Below, piece after piece: positions 9,130 to 64,000 of a stretch of DNA of 64,000 bases; position 1 is the stretch's first letter, and each line of letters opens with the position of its first letter. The translations under genes and the position numbers were made by a program. Under the pieces are notes generated by a model. That model was not told the DNA's origin. It searched no databases and was given only the letters and a program-made list of their open reading frames with translations. The DNA comes from Saitoella complicata NRRL Y-17804 (Eukaryota; Ascomycota; Saitoellomycetes; Saitoellales; Saitoellaceae), in the NCBI RefSeq assembly GCF_001661265.1, contig NW_017567005.1:359912-423911 (forward strand), written 5' to 3'.

Positions 9130-9234
9130 ACGCGGTGAAGCCGGGATTAAGATAGAAGGGAGGGGGGCAATTGGCAATAACTCGTCGTTCATTCTACCGT
9201 AGACCGTAGACAAGGGGTGAGGAGCAAAAACGTG

Positions 9235-9317
9235 TGCGGTACCCAGGAATCGAACCTGGGTCAATTCGGACGTTGCGTAGCCACAACGAATTATGATAAC
9301 CCCTACACTAGTACCGC
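9235..9317 (-). tRNA. tRNA-His (GTG), intron-containing, copy 1
   Basis: Acceptor GCGGTAC/GTACCGC with discriminator A, T-arm CCAGG-TTCGATT-CCTGG, and anticodon stem ATTCG/CGAAT. The loop TTGTGG...C places GTG at 34-36. An 11-nt intron (CTACGCAACGT) follows position 37 and contains CAAC, which can pair with the anticodon-side GTTG. The gene totals 83 nt; the G-1 base and CCA are added after transcription. Confidence 0.95.
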
Positions 9318-11332: not shown

Positions 11333-11415
11333 GCGGTACTAGTGTAGGGGTTATCATAATTCGTTGTGGCTACGCAACGTCCGAATTGACCCAGGTTCGA
11401 TTCCTGGGTACCGCA
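11333..11415 (+). tRNA. tRNA-His (GTG), intron-containing, copy 2
   Basis: Identical to copy 1 over all 83 nt, including the intron CTACGCAACGT, but on the opposite strand. Confidence 0.95.
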
Positions 11416-11631
11416 CATTATTTTGCATTTTGCTGTCCCATCATTCATGGTCATTCCGTCTTACACAGCTCATCTGAAGCCTCCTCAACTCATTTGCAAA
11501 TGCAATCCAGTTGCGGCCGCAAATGGCCACGCTGCATCGCTACCAGTATGCGACCCTGACAGCGGCCCGAACCTTCGTACTTTATGTCACCGCGCACGAT
11601 CCAGCGAAATAGCCGACCCAACACCACGACC

Positions 11632-12951: not shown

Positions 12952-14415
12952 CTAATACTCCAAGGCCTGCTCAAACAGCTTCGCCAAGCTCTCCCTCGTA
13001 ACCTCCTCTGGCTCAGGCGCCAACATCAACACCCTGCGCTGCGGCAACGTTCCCTCAACCAGATTCGGGATGTCACTCCTCTCGTAACCCAACTGACTAA
13101 TACCCCTTGGTTGATCTCCCAACCCGACCAGGAATTTGGCGATCGCCTCCGAGAGGATTGGACCAGCGTCCTCCTTACGGGCATTCGAGGTGTCTACTCC
13201 GAATATTTTTGCAATTTCGAGGTGACGCTCGGGGTTTGCTGGAGCGGTAAAATTGAATACAGCGGGCGCGGTGACGGCGACCGAAACACCGTGCGGCACG
13301 ATGGGGTGATCCACCGCGTACCCAGCATGCTTGTAGCTCTTGTTCATTCCGGACAAGGGGTATGACATGCCGTGACACAAATGCACACCAGCATTTCCGA
13401 ACCCGATACCGGCGAAGGTAGCGGCGAGGAGCATTTGTCCCTGAGCAAAGTGGTCTCCGGGGTCCTTGACGCAGCGGGGAAGGTACTCAACCACCATCTT
13501 CAAGGCGGTAATGGACCAGATGTCAGAGATTGGATTTGCGCCCTGGTAGGCGGGGCGGAGGAGGGGGTTGGTGGGGCGTGGGGTACGCTCGTTGTAAGGA
13601 ATTGCGGTGTAGGATTCGATGGAGTGACACAGAACATCGAGTCCGGAGGAGGCGAAGACGGCGGAAGGCATAGTGCGGACGTTGAGAGGGTCTACGACAC
13701 CAAGAAGTGGCTTAAGGTTTCGGTGTGCGATACCAGTTTTCGTCTTGTGGGACTGGAGATCGAAGATTGCGGTTCCGGTGGTTTCGGATCCCGTTCCGGC
13801 GGTGGTAGGAACTGCAATGAGAGGGTGAAGGCGCTTACCCACTGGAAGTCCCTTTCCGAGCGGCGCGTTGACGAAATCCATGAAGTCTGCGTCGGGATAG
13901 CAGGTGTAAAGGTTTGCCAGCTTGGCGGTGTCCATGACTGATCCTCCTCCAACTGCGAGGAATGAGTCTACACCGGCATTCCGTGCGAACTCGATGGCCT
14001 CCTTGATGGAAGTGTCCTTTGGCTCCACGCGGACATTGTCGAAAATGGCGTACGGTACACCCTGGGCCTCCAGACCTTCGATTGCCAACTTCAATGGTGT
14101 AAGTTGTGCAATGGTCTTATCCGTAAAGACCGCCACCTTCTTCGCGCCCATATTCTTGAAATCCATACCGACTTCACGGGTGACGCCTTCACCATAACGG
14201 ATCGAACTCGCAGCCATCTCGAAAGCATATTCCTTTTCCTCGGCAAAGGAGACAGGGGTAGCGTAACCTTTGCGAAGGATGTTTTTGGCGACTTGGAGGG
14301 GGTTCTGAACGGAGGAGCAAGAATGACAGGGACAAGAGGATGAGTGGGAGTTGACTGCGCCCATGAGGGTCATGGCCCTTTGGCGGGCTGTCTGTGCTAC
14401 GCGGATCATAGACAT
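12952..14415 (-). CDS. Mitochondrial hydroxyacid-oxoacid transhydrogenase (iron alcohol dehydrogenase family)
   Basis: This 487-residue single-exon protein matches ADHFE1-type enzymes, which oxidise 4-hydroxybutyrate to succinic semialdehyde while reducing 2-oxoglutarate to 2-hydroxyglutarate. The first 50 residues form a Ser/Cys-rich presequence. The dinucleotide-binding signature FLAVGGGSVMDTAKL and the PTTAGTGSETTGTAIFD segment are present. Metal-ligand candidates are the Asp and His of SGLDVLCHSIESY, the His residues of HLCHGMSYPL, and those of VDHPIVPHG, all conserved in the iron-dependent family. The length is normal. It converges with SWF1, the two stops being about 110 bp apart. Confidence 0.9.
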   Translation of the reverse strand: MSMIRVAQTARQRAMTLMGAVNSHSSSCPCHSCSSVQNPLQVAKNILRKGYATPVSFAEEKEYAFEMAASSIRYGEGVTREVGMDFKNMGAKKVAVFTDKTIAQLTPLKLAIEGLEAQGVPYAIFDNVRVEPKDTSIKEAIEFARNAGVDSFLAVGGGSVMDTAKLANLYTCYPDADFMDFVNAPLGKGLPVGKRLHPLIAVPTTAGTGSETTGTAIFDLQSHKTKTGIAHRNLKPLLGVVDPLNVRTMPSAVFASSGLDVLCHSIESYTAIPYNERTPRPTNPLLRPAYQGANPISDIWSITALKMVVEYLPRCVKDPGDHFAQGQMLLAATFAGIGFGNAGVHLCHGMSYPLSGMNKSYKHAGYAVDHPIVPHGVSVAVTAPAVFNFTAPANPERHLEIAKIFGVDTSNARKEDAGPILSEAIAKFLVGLGDQPRGISQLGYERSDIPNLVEGTLPQRRVLMLAPEPEEVTRESLAKLFEQALEY

Positions 14416-14620
14416 GGTTGATGCTTCAAAGTGTTGTTGATCGATCGATCAATCAGGGTGGTCGTGGAGGTCTTATACGAGACATACGTCGAGGTGGGGG
14501 AGTATCGCCGGGCGTTCCGTGCCAGTGCGGGGTTCATCATGTGGAGTCGGAACCGCGGCGCCTAAAGCTGACATAGCCGACAACTCCACATAATGTTTAA
14601 ATCCATATACATGTAGTTAA

Positions 14621-17012
14621 TCAGTTCACAATCCCACGCACGTACTCGATTTCACTCCATGTCGCCTTCCTGACTTTCTCCACCTTCAACTCCATCTTGC
14701 CGTCTTTGGTCACCCTTGCAACACCCACGACGCGGGTCATGTCTCCCACGCGCACATCATTCGAGACATCATGCCAGCAGCGACCGGAGAGGTACGGCCC
14801 ACGAGATGGATGGAAGATGTCACTGAGTTGAAGGACGTACTCAGGCCTTGGGTGGTAGATGGTACGTTCGGAAGAGGTAGAGGAGTGTAATACGCCTAAT
14901 CCCATACAATTAGCCTTCCTGCTGCGAACCATAAATGTGAGACTTACCAAAGAACTCGATGATCATCACTCGCTCCTCATCCTTACTCCTGCTGCAGCGT
15001 AACACCTCTCCGACGCGGAAACATGTCCGCAGCAAGCTTTCGCTGCCGAGGTTGAGGATCGTGGATGGAGGAGCCAGAGGATCTGGGTAAGAAGTACGTG
15101 TGAAGGGTTTGATGACCCGCGGTGCTGACGGTGCTGTGAAGGTTTCGGAGGGCGGAGGCGAGAGAAAGGTTGGTCTGTGTTGGTCGGCCTTGGTTTTGCT
15201 GGGAGGCGGCATGCATGTCCGAGCGATGTCATGACCTGATATGACTTCCGCTGAGGTCATCACCTCAGCTCTCCTTGCTCTCTTCCCTCTACTATCCGTA
15301 CACTCAGCCACTTCGCCATGCTCATGATCATCATACTGTCGTCTTTTGCGACTTTCACTGGAGTCTGAATCTCGAGAGTCCGGTTGGATGCCCCGTTCGT
15401 CCTCAAGCCTCATGCTAGCTTTCTCTTCGTTCACTCGTACCGATCGATCTCGAGACACAGAGCTGACTTCTACCTTCCCTGGTTGCTGTGGTATAGCAAC
15501 ATGTGATTTTGCGCCAAACTTGAATGCTACCAGTTTCTGTCGTGCTGGACCCAATAGATCTCGGGTGTCGTTATGCGTCTGCACCGTCTTCTCCGATCTC
15601 GTCTGCTGAGCTGAATTTGTTGTACCGTCTTCGGGACATCCGTTGATCCCTGCTTTCTCCATCTCTTCTTGTACCATCCGTTCCCCTATCATTTGAGAAT
15701 ACCCCATAACCTTGTCTGTTGTGTGGGCCTCTTCTGCGTTGCTCTTGGGCAGTCTCAATGCCGGTAATCCCATATAGGCAGGGTCAACATGATCTTCTTC
15801 GGGGGGCCGTGCAACGATACCGAGTTCGTAAATGTCAGCCGTGGGAATGAAGGAAGAAGCGGATCCAAACCCACCCAAGCCCGAAGGCTTAGCCGGGGTT
15901 ATATCCCAACCATTGTCTTCATCCTCGGCTAGATCTTCGTCTCGTCCCTGTGGCGAATAAGACTCCCCGTGCCTCCCAGATTCGTCGTGTAATGTGGAAC
16001 CCTTGTCTAGAAGGCTCTCCCGCGGGACCTCGAGCTCGACCTCTTTCGCTTCCAGATCGTCACCCGGTGGGACGGACCTGCCCATCTCGTAAATATCAGC
16101 CGTGGGAACAAACGTCTTTCCGCTCGAAAACCCGTCGTACACTGTTTTTGTTATACAAGTCACAGCAGGTGATGAGTCGCATCCGTATTTTCTTGAAGAA
16201 TTATGTTCGACAGGGGAAGTAACTTGATCTGTGGCGGCGGTATCATAAATGCTCGAAGTGGGAACGAATGATTTGCCGGAGGAGAATCCGGTGGAGAAGC
16301 CTGAAGGCGCGAAGACACACTCATCCTCGACCACATCTGTCCCTTCGTCCTCTTCTAAGTGGGTAGATGTATCATCGTTGCCCTGCTCTTGACTCTTCTC
16401 AGCTACCAGTAGCTCAACCGTGTCCGTTAAGGGGTTGACTCCCATGTCGTATATGCTCGCGGTCGGCACATAAGATTTGCCAGATGAAAAACCACTTGAG
16501 AAACCTGATGGGGCAAAGACGGTACCTGTATCCTCACAATCACCTTCCCCGATACTGGAATTATCTCCTTCTTGCTCGAGCGCATTTACTGCCAATGGCG
16601 AGCCGGCGGATGTATTCAATCCGTCCAATTCCTCGGGACATTGTCGTTGCTCACCTTCGACGAGCTCGCAAACGTTGCGTCCCCCTCCTTCCTCCGTGAT
16701 TTTACCGTGGTCGTGGCGCTGGCCTCCATCTCCTTCAAACCCCAAATCCACGCATTCATCCCCATGATGTTTGGACATGCATATATCCACATCCACATCC
16801 ACCCTCACTGGTCCCGTCATACACTCTTCCTCTCCCAAAGTTTCCACGCTATTCTCAGCCACCCTCTGTCCCGCTTCGTCCATATCTGTATCCGCTTCGA
16901 ATTCGTTCATCGACACCTCAACCGTATGGAGGCGCCGAAGTACGGGACGGTCTGGAGTGAATGCAGCAGAATGGCGAGCTGGCTGTGAGTATGGGGAAGA
17001 GTCGAACGTCAT
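14621..17012 (-). CDS. Fungal protein with four BRC-like repeats and a conserved C-terminal domain, function unknown
   Basis: Two exons (14948-17012 and 14621-14895) are split by a 52-nt intron (GTAAGT...GATTAG), giving 779 residues. The acidic, disordered N-terminal two thirds carries four repeats near residues 169-191, 237-257, 293-311 and 377-398, of the form GFSSGKSFVPTxxIYDMG. The last 150 residues are folded-looking: STILNLGSESLLRTCFRVGE, then YVLQLSDIFHPSRGPYLSGR, ending KATWSEIEYVRGIVN. I recall this C-terminal block as conserved in Pezizomycotina hypothetical proteins. The repeats recall BRCA2 BRC repeats (F-x-x-A-SGK-x-V), but the FxxA alanine is absent, so RAD51 binding is only a hypothesis. 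A basic, possibly nuclear segment (SRKRRQYDD, RGKRARR) lies near 560-590. Confidence 0.72.
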
Positions 17013-17306
17013 ATTGGGATGCTATGACTCACGGCCGGTTCAATTGAGTACAATTAAATCCCTTGTGGAGTGAAGTTGGTAGGTCAGTTCGTGTGGTGGG
17101 TCCCGGTGTGTGAGGTCAATGCGCGTGCGAACGCTCGGGTCTCTCGAACACACGATGGATCTGCACGACTGCGGCGAGACGCCGAGCAGAAGCACGAAAA
17201 GGAGGTTCCATTGATGGAATTGCGGTATCAACCTAAATTGTCCTGAATACGTGCGCTGTAGAACTTTGCAAGGGCAAGAAAAGCGAACCAACATACAAAA
17301 GCTTCG

Positions 17307-17389
17307 TGCGGTACCCAGGAATCGAACCTGGGTCAATTCGGACGTTGCGTGGCCACAACGAATTATGATAACCCCTACACTAGTACCGC
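17307..17389 (-). tRNA. tRNA-His (GTG), intron-containing, copy 3
   Basis: The mature sequence matches copies 1 and 2. The intron differs at one base (CCACGCAACGT rather than CTACGCAACGT), outside the mature tRNA. Confidence 0.95.
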
Positions 17390-17594: not shown

Positions 17595-18668
17595 TCACGC
17601 CTCATCCACATCCAAATCAACCTGCCTCACATTCAAATTAACCCTCTTCCCCCTCATATACCCCGCAAACTCCTCCACCCACCCATCCTCCCCCTCCCCC
17701 TGCCCACCCACCTCCCCCAAATACCCCGGACACGTCCCCTCAATCACCCTCGGCACAGCATGAAACCCCATTCTCGCCTTCCCAGTCATGACGACAGCAT
17801 CCCCACTCCGCACTAAAATGGCAAGTGGCGCGACATCCTTCGTCTCCCGTCCCATTAGGAAGATTGCTGAACAACCGAGAGAGAGGGAGAGGAGTGGTGC
17901 GGTGTGGTTGGGTTCGGAGTGGTCGGTATGGGGGGACAACGTATCGCCTGGTGAGTAGAAATTGACGATTGCGGTTTGCGCAAGCCAGGTGTGTGTAGAG
18001 GATGGGAGGACGGAGACAAGGCGGGAAGAGAGGAGGGCAATGTCGGTGGGGAATGGTGGGGGTGGGGATGGTGGGTATGTCTTGGAGGTCCAGTCGTATT
18101 GGTGACCGAGTGTGATCCAGCGTAACTTCTTCTCCAGTAATTCCCGTACCGACATAGGTTTTAGGTGGTCTTGTAGTGGTTGGACAAGATCTAGAGTTTG
18201 TTCTTCTTCGCTTTGTTGCTGTGTCGCAATCGCGGCGGCGAAGAGGCCCCCGGGAATGAAGGGGTAGAAGGGGGTAAGGTTGCCTTTGTTGTAGGGTTTT
18301 GCGATGTCGCGGAGGAGTGTTTTTCGTATGAGGGTGCGTTGCGTGCGGGGTGGGAGGACGTTGGGGAGGATGATGAGGCCTGTTGTCATAACAAGTCAGC
18401 TTGGGCAATTGCAACCTCGCCGAGCTCAAGGTAACATGCCTGGTGCTCGTTCGTATTCGTAGGCTACTGGGTTTTCGGCAATGTCCCATCCGGTTTCTAC
18501 AACGGCCTCCTGTCGCGGTAAATTGAGCTCCACCCTTCTCAATCCCTCCGGCAGCTTCTCCACATCACTCAAATCCAACACATCCGACAAATCCAGTGGC
18601 TGATCTTTCCTCTTGTACTTCAACTCTGCCAACCTGAACGGAGTCTTGTTCGTCGGTGCTGTCCCCAT
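17595..18668 (-). CDS. ALKBH1-like Fe(II)/2-oxoglutarate dioxygenase, with a GC-AG intron
   Basis: Proteins of this family remove methyl groups from nucleic acids. Exon 1 (18440-18668) and exon 2 (17595-18379) join only if a GC-AG intron (18380-18439, CAG|GCATGT...CAACAG) is used. This gives 337 residues with APG|LIILPNVLPPRTQ, the usual opening of the AlkB fold. The iron site is seen as HTDHSEPNH (H-x-D) and the later His in GFHAVPRVIEG, with Arg following. No GT donor in the region keeps the frame. Residues 20-75 correspond to the N-terminal extension of ALKBH1/Abh1 proteins. A short Pro-rich loop (YPPSPPPPFP) precedes the core. Substrate, DNA or tRNA, cannot be read from the sequence. Confidence 0.85.
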
Positions 18669-32042: not shown

Positions 32043-32125
32043 GCGGTACTAGTGTAGGGGTTATCATAATTCGTTGTGGCTACGCAGCGTCCGAATTGAC
32101 CCAGGTTCGATTCCTGGGTACCGCA
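32043..32125 (+). tRNA. tRNA-His (GTG), intron-containing, copy 4
   Basis: The mature sequence is identical to the other three copies. The intron differs at one base (CTACGCAGCGT). It lies between APE4 and eIF3c, about 22 kb from copy 1. Confidence 0.95.
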
Positions 32126-32535
32126 CACAGCTTTTGCAACCTTTTTGCTGACTACGGTGCACCACCATATTGCATTTCATTGCGATGCTGCACCCAATCT
32201 CAATCAACACTCGTCCCCTCCAAATCCTTGGATGTTCATCCTACCGGCATTGGAGCTAAACAGAGTTAGAGGCTCGACAATCAGGTAGGTCTGGGCTCCA
32301 TTCGGGACAGAAAATCCTGATAAGGAGCTCGAGATTCCAGCAATATGATCATGAACAAACAGACAAGGGGGATATCGTTTTGTATTTTCCCAAAAGTAAC
32401 TTTCTACAAGCGAACCCATGATGCAGATGATTCCCTAAAAAGATCGCGAGCAAGACCGCCTAAATTTTCCACTCACTGCCAACAACGAACGAACGTCAAC
32501 TACCCCAACACTTTGCAACCCACACGCACACACGC
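32126..32535. other. Spacer between tRNA-His copy 4 and the eIF3c 3' end
   Basis: The 410 bp carry no supported gene. They are the tRNA 3' flank, including a T run just after the tRNA (TTTTGCAACCTTTTT), which can act as a Pol III terminator, and the eIF3c 3' flank. Confidence 0.35.
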
Positions 32536-59088: not shown

Positions 59089-59196
59089 CCCCGCAAACCG
59101 CTATAAGGGAGGATAAGGTGTACGATAGTTGATGACCAAAAAAATCATGTATTACACTGTATGACTATGACTGATGTACTCTTTCCACACCCACAT

Positions 59197-61050
59197 CTAA
59201 GCGTTCAACCCACCAGTAGCATCAACACTCTTCTCCTCACCCTTCACAAGCGGAACCTCAGCCTCAACAGCCTTCGCATCAACCTTCTCCTCATCAGGCT
59301 TCGCACCAGCACTGACATCAGGCTTCATTGCCGGGAACAAAAGGACTTCCTTGATGTTGTTCGAGTCGGTCAAGAACATACACAAACGGTCCACACCCAA
59401 TCCCCAGCCTCCGGTGGGGGGGAGACCATACTCGAGCGACGTACAGAAATTCTCATCGATGATTTGGGCTTCGTCGTCACCGGAATCCTTCTGGTTGGCT
59501 TGTTCCGCGAATGTTGCGCGTTGAGCGACGGGGTCGTTCATCTCGGTGTAGGCGTTACAAAGTTCCTTGGTCGCGACAAACATTTCGAAACGCTCGGTCA
59601 ATCCGGGGCGGGAACGGTGGTATTTGGCGAGGGGGGACATCATTTGGGGGTGGTTCATGATGAAGGTGGGGTTGATGCAGGATTCCTCGATGAACTCGCC
59701 GACCAGTTTGTCGAGGAGACGGGCGTTGGTGAGAGGTGGGGAACACTCGATGTTGTGCGCCTTGCATTGGGCCAAGAGGAATTCTCCGGTTTCTTTGGTG
59801 TGGAGTTCGGTGCCGGGGGGGAACTTGACGCCGAGTTTCTCCTCGAGGGTCTCGATCATGTCGCAGCGCTTCCATGGGCGCGCAAAGTCGATGGTGAGCT
59901 CCCTGCCGTCGGGACCGTCGGGGTGGTAAGTAACCTTGGTACCACCGGTCAAAGCCTCGACCATTCCGGAAACCAACTCCTCCGTCATGTCCATGATGTC
60001 GTTGACATCGGCGTAAGCCCAGTATGCCTCGATGGTGGTGAATTCGGGGTTGTGGGTGAGGTCGATACCCTCGTTACGGAACTGGCGGCCGATTTCGTAG
60101 ACGCGCTCCATACCACCGACGACGAGCATCTTGAGGTACAGCTCGGGTGCAACACGCATGAACAAGTCAAGGTCCAAATCGTTGTGATGGGTAATGAAAG
60201 GCTTGGCGGTAGCACCACCGGCGATCATGTTCATCATGGGGGTCTCAACCTCGACAAAGTCCTTGTTGTCAAAGTACTGGCGGATGTACTTGATGATCTT
60301 GGAGCGCATCAAGAACTTGTTGCGGGTGTTGTTGTTCATGATCAAGTCGAGGTAACGCTGACGGTAACGGGTCTCCTGGTCCTTGAGACCGTAGTGCTCG
60401 GTGGGGAGCATGTGGAGGGAAGGAGAGAGAAGGACGATCTCGGTAGCGAAGATGGAGAGCTCGCCACCCTCACGGCCCTTGGGGTTGGAACGACCGGGGT
60501 AACCCTTGACACCGACGATGTCACCACGGCGGATGTGGTCGTGCATGGCAGCGTAGTCACCAGCGCACTCCTGGGCCTGAGCCAAGATCTGGATCTTGAC
60601 ACCCTCACCGCGGAGGTCGTAGAACTTGAGCTTGGCACCGGACTCACGCTTGTTGTGGATACGACCGGCGACGGTGATGATCTCCTCGGGGAGCATGTCG
60701 CCCTTGGCGAGGTGCTCGTACTTGGTGATGAACTCGGTCAATCGGGTACCGACGTGGAACTTGTGGGGGTAGGGGTTGGTCTCGGGGTTGCCACGGAGCT
60801 TGTTGACGGCGCGGGAACGGATCTCGAAGTATTGGTTGGGGGTAAGCTCGGCCTCATCCTCCTCGGCAGACTTCTTCTTGGGCGCAGCGGCGGCAGGGGC
60901 CTTAGCAGCCTTCTCGGCCTTCTCGGCGGCCTTCTGACGGGTCTTTTGGCGCTTCTTGAGTTCGGACTTGGAGACCTGCTCGCCAGTCACGTCATCAAGG
61001 TAGGTCTGCTGGACCTTGTCGGCCAATTCGTTGACGGCAGCGGCAGACAT
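59197..61050 (-). CDS. KRS1: Lysyl-tRNA synthetase (class II)
   Basis: From the ATG at 61050 the protein has 617 residues. A Lys/Ala-rich N-terminal helix (tRNA binding) precedes the OB-fold anticodon domain ([20 protein letters not shown]). The catalytic core has motif 1 ([14 protein letters not shown]), motif 2 ([20 protein letters not shown]) and motif 3 ([20 protein letters not shown]). All are intact. The frame remains open upstream and includes an ATG at 61167 that would add a 39-residue basic leader. The C-terminal 35 residues after the core are an Ala/Glu/Lys extension. The gene lies within 3 kb of the telomere repeats. Strong codon preference gives a long, spurious frame on the opposite strand. 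Confidence 0.96.
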
Positions 61051-61209
61051 TTTTGTGACGAAGATCGAGAATGCCTGGTGTAGTGTATCGTTCGAGCAAC
61101 CGCCCGTTTTTTTAGAGTAGCAAATTCCAGGGGTAGCGCACGATCGACCGACGATACGTGAAGTCATCAAGAAGAGCGCGGTGAAGACAGCAATTCGACC
61201 TAGAAATAG

Positions 61210-61580
61210 ATGAGCTGGAAGAATTTGTTTACGAAGTTTACGGAGAAGAAAGGGATCAATACCATTGTTCGTGAAACAGCTCCCCAATCGGCGCTGTAAC
61301 CCTCACGGAAGACGAGGAAGCGCTCCGAGTCCACTCCGTCGGATTACTAAATCTATATTTCCCACCAGTGCCCGCGCCTGAAGAAGCACAGGCCAAGGGC
61401 TCTGTCAATGCGGAGCTGAAGGATCTTGCAGATGCGTACACCAAGCTTGAGGCCCGTGTCTACGATTACGGCAGCTGTACCGCGGACAGGAGTACGCAAT
61501 ACCATTTTGTAACGTACCCTTTCGTCAAAAGGACCAAGACGGACCCCAACCGAGCATGTGCTGTGCGTTCCCACGATTAG
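61210..61580 (+). CDS. Small unknown protein, 105 residues, two-exon model
   Basis: A coding-looking frame from 61280 to a stop at 61580 reads [20 protein letters not shown], then [15 protein letters not shown] and a helical part ([20 protein letters not shown]). Upstream it is closed by a stop. A 53-nt intron (61227-61279, GTTTAC...AAACAG) connects it to an ATG at 61210 (MSWKN) in frame for 105 residues. The donor is weak and no textbook branch point is seen, so the 5' end is tentative. It is divergent from KRS1, about 160 bp away. No family is recognised. Confidence 0.4.
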
Positions 61581-63876: not shown

Positions 63877-64000
63877 TTAGGGTTAGGGTTAGGGTTAGGG
63901 TTAGGGTTAGGGTTAGGGTTAGGGTTAGGGTTAGGGTTAGGGTTAGGGTTAGGGTTAGGGTTAGGGTTAGGGTTAGGGTTAGGGTTAGGGTTAGGGTTAG
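63877..64000 (+). repeat. Telomere, (TTAGGG)20 plus TTAG
   Basis: Twenty perfect TTAGGG units and a partial unit run to the end of the window, preceded by GGGG at 63873-63876. The G-rich strand runs toward the right edge, as at a right chromosome end. Confidence 0.99.

Follow-up and report, generated by a model that had tools for sequence, protein, structure and literature searches.

Saitoella complicata is a Taphrinomycotina yeast with a genome of 14.1 Mb (PMC4447899); the assembly comprises 14,122,262 bases on 34 contigs. Within the window, by which we mean the whole stretch of 64,000 nucleotides analysed here, we found a predicted two-exon gene on the minus strand, which runs from an ATG at 17012 to a stop codon that ends at 14621 and encodes 779 amino acids once a canonical intron of 52 nt is removed. 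The gene model was drawn by inspection of the sequence. An earlier reading made from the sequence alone (the sequence-only reading) had placed an undescribed fungal protein at 14621..17012, and these two positions proved to be the exact stop and ATG ends of the gene. The gene is single copy, because a search of the genome with the full protein, at E values up to 10, returned only the gene itself, with the match split in two at the intron. Its exons and intron are as follows.

14948..17012, minus strand: exon 1, amino acids 1-688 and the first base of codon 689; an open frame from the ATG to the GTAAGT donor
14896..14947, minus strand: intron of 52 nt (GTAAGT...CTAAT...TTAG), placed by inspection; the protein match changes frame here
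14621..14895, minus strand: exon 2, from the end of codon 689 to amino acid 779 and the stop; supported by its open frame and by the genome match

Just downstream of the gene lies an iron-containing alcohol dehydrogenase on the minus strand (window 12952-14448; PF00465, E 3.9e-42). Upstream, past one tRNA gene and also on the minus strand, lies a 2OG-Fe(II) oxygenase that is AlkB-like (window 17595-18395; PF13532, E 1.3e-37). The 293 bases directly upstream of the gene contain one CACGAAA and no ACGCGT, which is too little to use as a record of promoter boxes. The tRNA gene just upstream is one of four within 23 kb (window 9234-9317, 11333-11416, 17306-17389 and 32043-32126), which are near-identical at 82 to 84 of 84 bases. 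ARAGORN called these tRNAs Pro(TGG); by our own reading, the loop TTGTGG with its extra bases looks more like His(GTG) with a short intron. At window 59107-61302, long open frames on both strands overlap, and the plus-strand frame of 658 amino acids is probably a mere shadow, because the minus-strand frame encodes a tRNA synthetase of class II (PF00152, E 3.4e-92) that includes an OB domain. The window ends, as does the contig, in a perfect TTAGGG telomere repeat of 124 bases (63877-64000), which puts the gene about 47 kb from a chromosome end.

Four spaced units in an acidic arm

The first exon carries an 18-residue unit in four spaced copies, at amino acids 174-191, 242-259, 294-311 and 381-398, with start-to-start distances of 52 to 87 residues. 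The copies and the arms that precede two of them are listed here; all four were defined by comparison of the units and by the genome pattern search described below.

16494..16520, minus strand: left arm of unit 1, amino acids 165-173, VFAPSGFSS; joined to unit 1 it gives a second FSSG
16440..16493, minus strand: unit 1, amino acids 174-191, GFSSGKSYVPTASIYDMG
16290..16316, minus strand: left arm of unit 2, amino acids 233-241, VFAPSGFST; joined to unit 2 it gives FSTG
16236..16289, minus strand: unit 2, amino acids 242-259, GFSSGKSFVPTSSIYDTA
16080..16133, minus strand: unit 3, amino acids 294-311, GFSSGKTFVPTADIYEMG
15819..15872, minus strand: unit 4, amino acids 381-398, GFGSASSFIPTADIYELG; its first half is divergent, and its FGSA keeps the alanine of FxxA

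In outline, the motif is GFxS[GA]x[ST][FY][VI]PTxxIY[DE], with G, F, S, P, T, I and Y invariant in all four units. The sequence-only reading had described four repeats of a single pattern in which the FxxA alanine is not kept. Units 1-3 fit that pattern, but the fourth departs from it in its first half (GFGSASS) and reads GFGSASSFIPTADIYE; likewise, glycine takes the place of the alanine in three units, but alanine is kept in one (FGSA, amino acids 382-385). A faint echo of the unit (FxxG, KS, V, P) can be seen at amino acids 493-512 (window 15477-15536, minus strand; KLVAFKFGAKSHVAIPQQPG). By eye, it could be a decayed fifth copy, which we do not claim.

Within this genome, the unit is unique to this gene. 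A DNA pattern for its second half, [FY][VIM]PTxxIY[DE], had four matches in the 14.1 Mb genome, all four of them in this gene, in a search that would miss copies split by an intron, and the reversed control of this pattern had no match in the whole genome. A looser pattern for GFxxGK[ST]-like sequences matched seven places, three in this gene and four elsewhere; we rejected the four, in all of which the rest of the unit is absent and a stop occurs within 30 codons. When we shuffled the residues of the protein, none of 2,000 shuffles contained Fx[ST][AG] or [FY][VI]P[TP] as often as the protein itself does. Such shuffles flatter patterns that were read off the data themselves, and the genome-wide count is the better control.

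Comparison of the units at the codon level revealed that their residues have been kept over a long divergence. Across the six pairs of units, pS ranged from 0.62 to 1.05 and pN from 0.11 to 0.34 (pooled, 0.85 and 0.24). Identical residues used the same codon in 3/14, 3/14, 2/10, 3/12, 4/9 and 7/12 cases, that is, in less than half of cases for five of the six pairs; the closest pair is units 3 and 4, with a pS of 0.62 and 7/12 shared codons. With synonymous sites near saturation and residues kept, we conclude that the copies are old and that the peptide is constrained within this genome, an estimate that draws on only 18 codons per unit and in which the low pN is partly a matter of choice, because the units were selected for their likeness.

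The surroundings of the units are acidic, with a net charge of -26 for residues 1-160 and -31 for residues 160-400, and FoldIndex was below 0 in 20 of the 25 segments starting at residues 1-601. Each of the five positive segments before residue 626 overlaps a unit; some negative segments overlap units too, and segment 351-401 contains the whole of unit 4. These charges and mostly negative values bear out the acidic, low-fold region in which the sequence-only reading had placed the repeats. Judging from its charge and hydropathy composition, the arm that carries the units is probably disordered. Between the arm and the C terminus, we noted a possible nuclear import signal:

15270..15350, minus strand: two basic clusters, amino acids 555-559 (RKRRQ) and 575-581 (RGKRARR)

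A putative C-terminal domain

The end of the protein differs in composition from the rest. Hydrophobic residues make up a larger share of residues 640-779 (0.34) than of the other four stretches of the protein (0.17-0.25), and we conclude that the C terminus is probably small and folded. From composition, Pfam and a structure model, its predicted extent is as follows.

14948..15047, minus strand, in exon 1 (amino acids 656-688), continuing through exon 2 to amino acid 779: putative C-terminal domain

The sequence-only reading had raised the possibility of an OB fold here, and profile and structure-prediction checks took that suggestion as far as a hint. The Pfam OB-fold model PF01336 matched the last part of the domain at E 0.02 when 149 residues were searched and at E 0.012 when 124 were searched, about 11 bits under the cut-off. 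Among eight shuffles and one reversed copy used as a control, three shuffles matched other families, the best at E 0.038; because shuffles reach this value, we treat the PF01336 match as a hint only. When the same profile was run over the genome, it matched eight other places, but this exon was absent from them. An AlphaFold2 model of exon 2 alone, which covers only the stretch of the domain encoded there, had a pLDDT of 44 and ended in the order strand-strand-strand-helix. In so poor a model, this order would be in keeping with the second half of an OB fold. Foldseek returned 623 matches to the exon 2 model at E values up to 10, none of them at 0.001 or better. A PDB sequence search with the C terminus gave eight distinct chains at E values up to 10, of which the best, EF-Tu at E 0.13, was taken as chance, and a PDB search with one unit gave no match. 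No relatives of exon 2 were found among prokaryotic genome contigs or viral contigs.

Probable multivalent docking and its alternatives

The explanation that we favour, with a probability of roughly 0.7, is that the protein serves as a multivalent scaffold of short linear motifs, has a small folded tail and probably acts in the nucleus. Four constrained, genome-unique units in an acidic, low-fold region give good support to the multivalent short linear motif that had been proposed from the sequence. Within this genome, the protein combines what such a scaffold should have: spaced copies of a motif, kept at the protein level, in a region that is disordered as judged by composition. We propose that every unit would fit the same pocket on a folded partner, which would let a single molecule gather up to four partners, and that the small folded C-terminal domain may tie the arm to a second target. 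Among titles and the opening lines of abstracts, a literature search returned no description of such a protein in Ascomycota; as far as our searches reach, this real, single-copy protein is undescribed.

The second half of the unit might instead be a phospho-docking site, in which an FHA domain would recognise the invariant threonine of PTxxI once it is phosphorylated, which would make the protein a tunable platform of the checkpoint type. FHA domains read pTxxI, the threonine and the isoleucine at +3 are invariant in all four units, and the residue two positions after the threonine is serine in two units and aspartate in two. However, T..[ILV] is a common pattern in this protein (16 observed versus 8.7 expected), TP, SP, TQ and SQ are absent from every unit, and the invariant GFxS of the first half would be left unexplained; we consider this reading quite improbable. 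Still less probable is a recent, neutral repeat expansion without function. The longer left arm VFAPSGFS[ST] common to units 1 and 2, with its doubled FSSG/FSTG, does look like a local duplication, but the units are spaced rather than in tandem, and the near-saturated synonymous divergence between units whose residues are kept led us to reject this explanation in the main. PABP-binding PAM2 motifs are suggested by S[GA]xS[FY]VP, given that the PAM2 core loosely resembles [GA]xx[FY]xP. The PAM2 expression had no match in the protein, however, and the Pfam model PF07145 matched three other places in the genome (one over the cut-off) but not this gene; we therefore rejected PAM2, to which we give almost no credence. 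The SHP box, F.G.G..[LH], had no match in the protein.

Comparison with recombinase-binding motifs

For the multivalent docking protein that we favour, the best named candidate for a partner is, possibly, a recombinase of the Rad51 family. We regard this sub-case, with Rad51 or another recombinase of its family as the partner, as unlikely, if less so than the alternatives above. In it, Fx[ST][AG] would enter the pocket for the recombinase's own FTTA, [FY][VI]PT would add a PhePP-like contact to this one and the C-terminal domain would bind DNA or RPA, an action like that of BRCA2 or of the Rad52 tail and identical to neither. In profile searches of the genome, we found Rad51 in one open frame on contig C26, with GFTTA in its own linker, as this sub-case would have it. 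A second gene of the family, perhaps Dmc1, lies in pieces on contig C10, and weaker matches to the family occur on contigs C11 and C19. Rad52 is also present, with an FxxA sequence (FMNA) in the long frame that lies downstream of its Rad52 domain, as is Swi5. Because these usual mediators are present, Rad51 loading can be accounted for without the protein described here, and this counts against a recombinase partner. The BRCA2 repeat, OB1 and helical models found nothing in the genome, which counts for such a partner; these searches had no true positive control behind them, since control genomes matched in only one run, and there it was E. coli under the cut-off, and a genome-wide absence of BRCA2 is not established.

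The sequence-only reading had likened the units to the BRC repeats of BRCA2. The likeness to the BRC repeats of BRCA2 and Brh2 lies in spaced, F-centred peptides that contain Fx[ST][AG], and in a disordered setting that precedes a folded C terminus. According to part of PMC10684384, the BRC consensus is Fx[ST][AG]xGx(12)[ASV] or, relaxed, Fx[ST][AG]xG, FxxA and FxxG both occur in fungi, where the tetramer is FxT[GAV], and a second tetramer follows 17 residues on from the first. The first fungal tetramer (FxxA, FxxG or FxT[GAV]) is found in all four units, as FSSG in three and FGSA in one, all of them Fx[ST][AG]. This pattern occurs six times in the protein, with at least one copy at each unit, compared with 0.56 expected, a count that 0 of 2,000 shuffles reached. 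By contrast, strict FxxA does not exceed chance (1 observed versus 1.40 expected, reached by 1,550 of 2,000 shuffles). Neither the full nor the relaxed consensus has a match in the protein, as the xG fails in all units. The BRC-type second hydrophobic tetramer at 17 residues is absent; instead, IY[DE]x lies at a distance of 8 residues, and its last residue in the four units is M, T, M and L rather than D, E or Q. Pfam, including its BRCA2 repeat model, found no match in fragments of the four units, and the full protein matched no family at E values up to 10, hence no BRCA2 helical domain or BRCA2-type OB folds. Thus, the Fx[ST][AG] part of the likeness stands, but by consensus, spacing and Pfam, the units do not qualify as BRC repeats. 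By resemblance, the pocket that binds BRC repeats could still accept them. In line with this possibility, FxxG in tetrapeptides lowered binding about sixfold without abolishing it (PMC4855620, in part), and in an excerpt of PMC9162458 the FxxG of Leishmania BRC1 cost threefold in binding, BRC1 binding without the LFDE cluster.

Two other kinds of recombinase-binding motif can be compared with the units. The PhePP motifs of BRCA2 are FxPP (PMC11436757, in part), and the [FY][VI]P core of the units, which also lies in a disordered region, is one residue off this form. However, FxPP has no match in the protein, and threonine replaces the second proline in all four units; in the same portion of PMC11436757, binding was abolished when the phenylalanine and both prolines were changed together, so this replacement falls on one of that set. 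The Rad51-binding tail of fungal Rad52 (FVTA with extensions) is similar in having an F-centred tetramer in a disordered segment, but there is one extended site per Rad52 chain (PMC12218292, in part) compared with four repeated units here, and Pfam found no annealing domain in the full protein.

Taken further, the recombinase sub-case would make the protein a BRCA2 analogue in a fungus of a phylum reported, in part of PMC10684384, to lack BRCA2 homologs: a disordered arm with four compact 18-residue recombinase-binding units, each joining an FxxA/FxxG mimic to a PhePP-like contact, and a small OB-like C-terminal domain. This fuller picture seems to us more doubtful than the choice of partner itself.

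The units provide a ready-made bait, as a single peptide could fish out the binding partner. Should this partner prove to be Rad51 or a relative, a fungus in which no BRCA2 was detected would possess a helper of the BRCA2 kind in addition to Rad52, and the reported lack of BRCA2 in Ascomycota would be read differently. If the partner is not of the Rad51 type, the motif would still be a new multivalent docking peptide.
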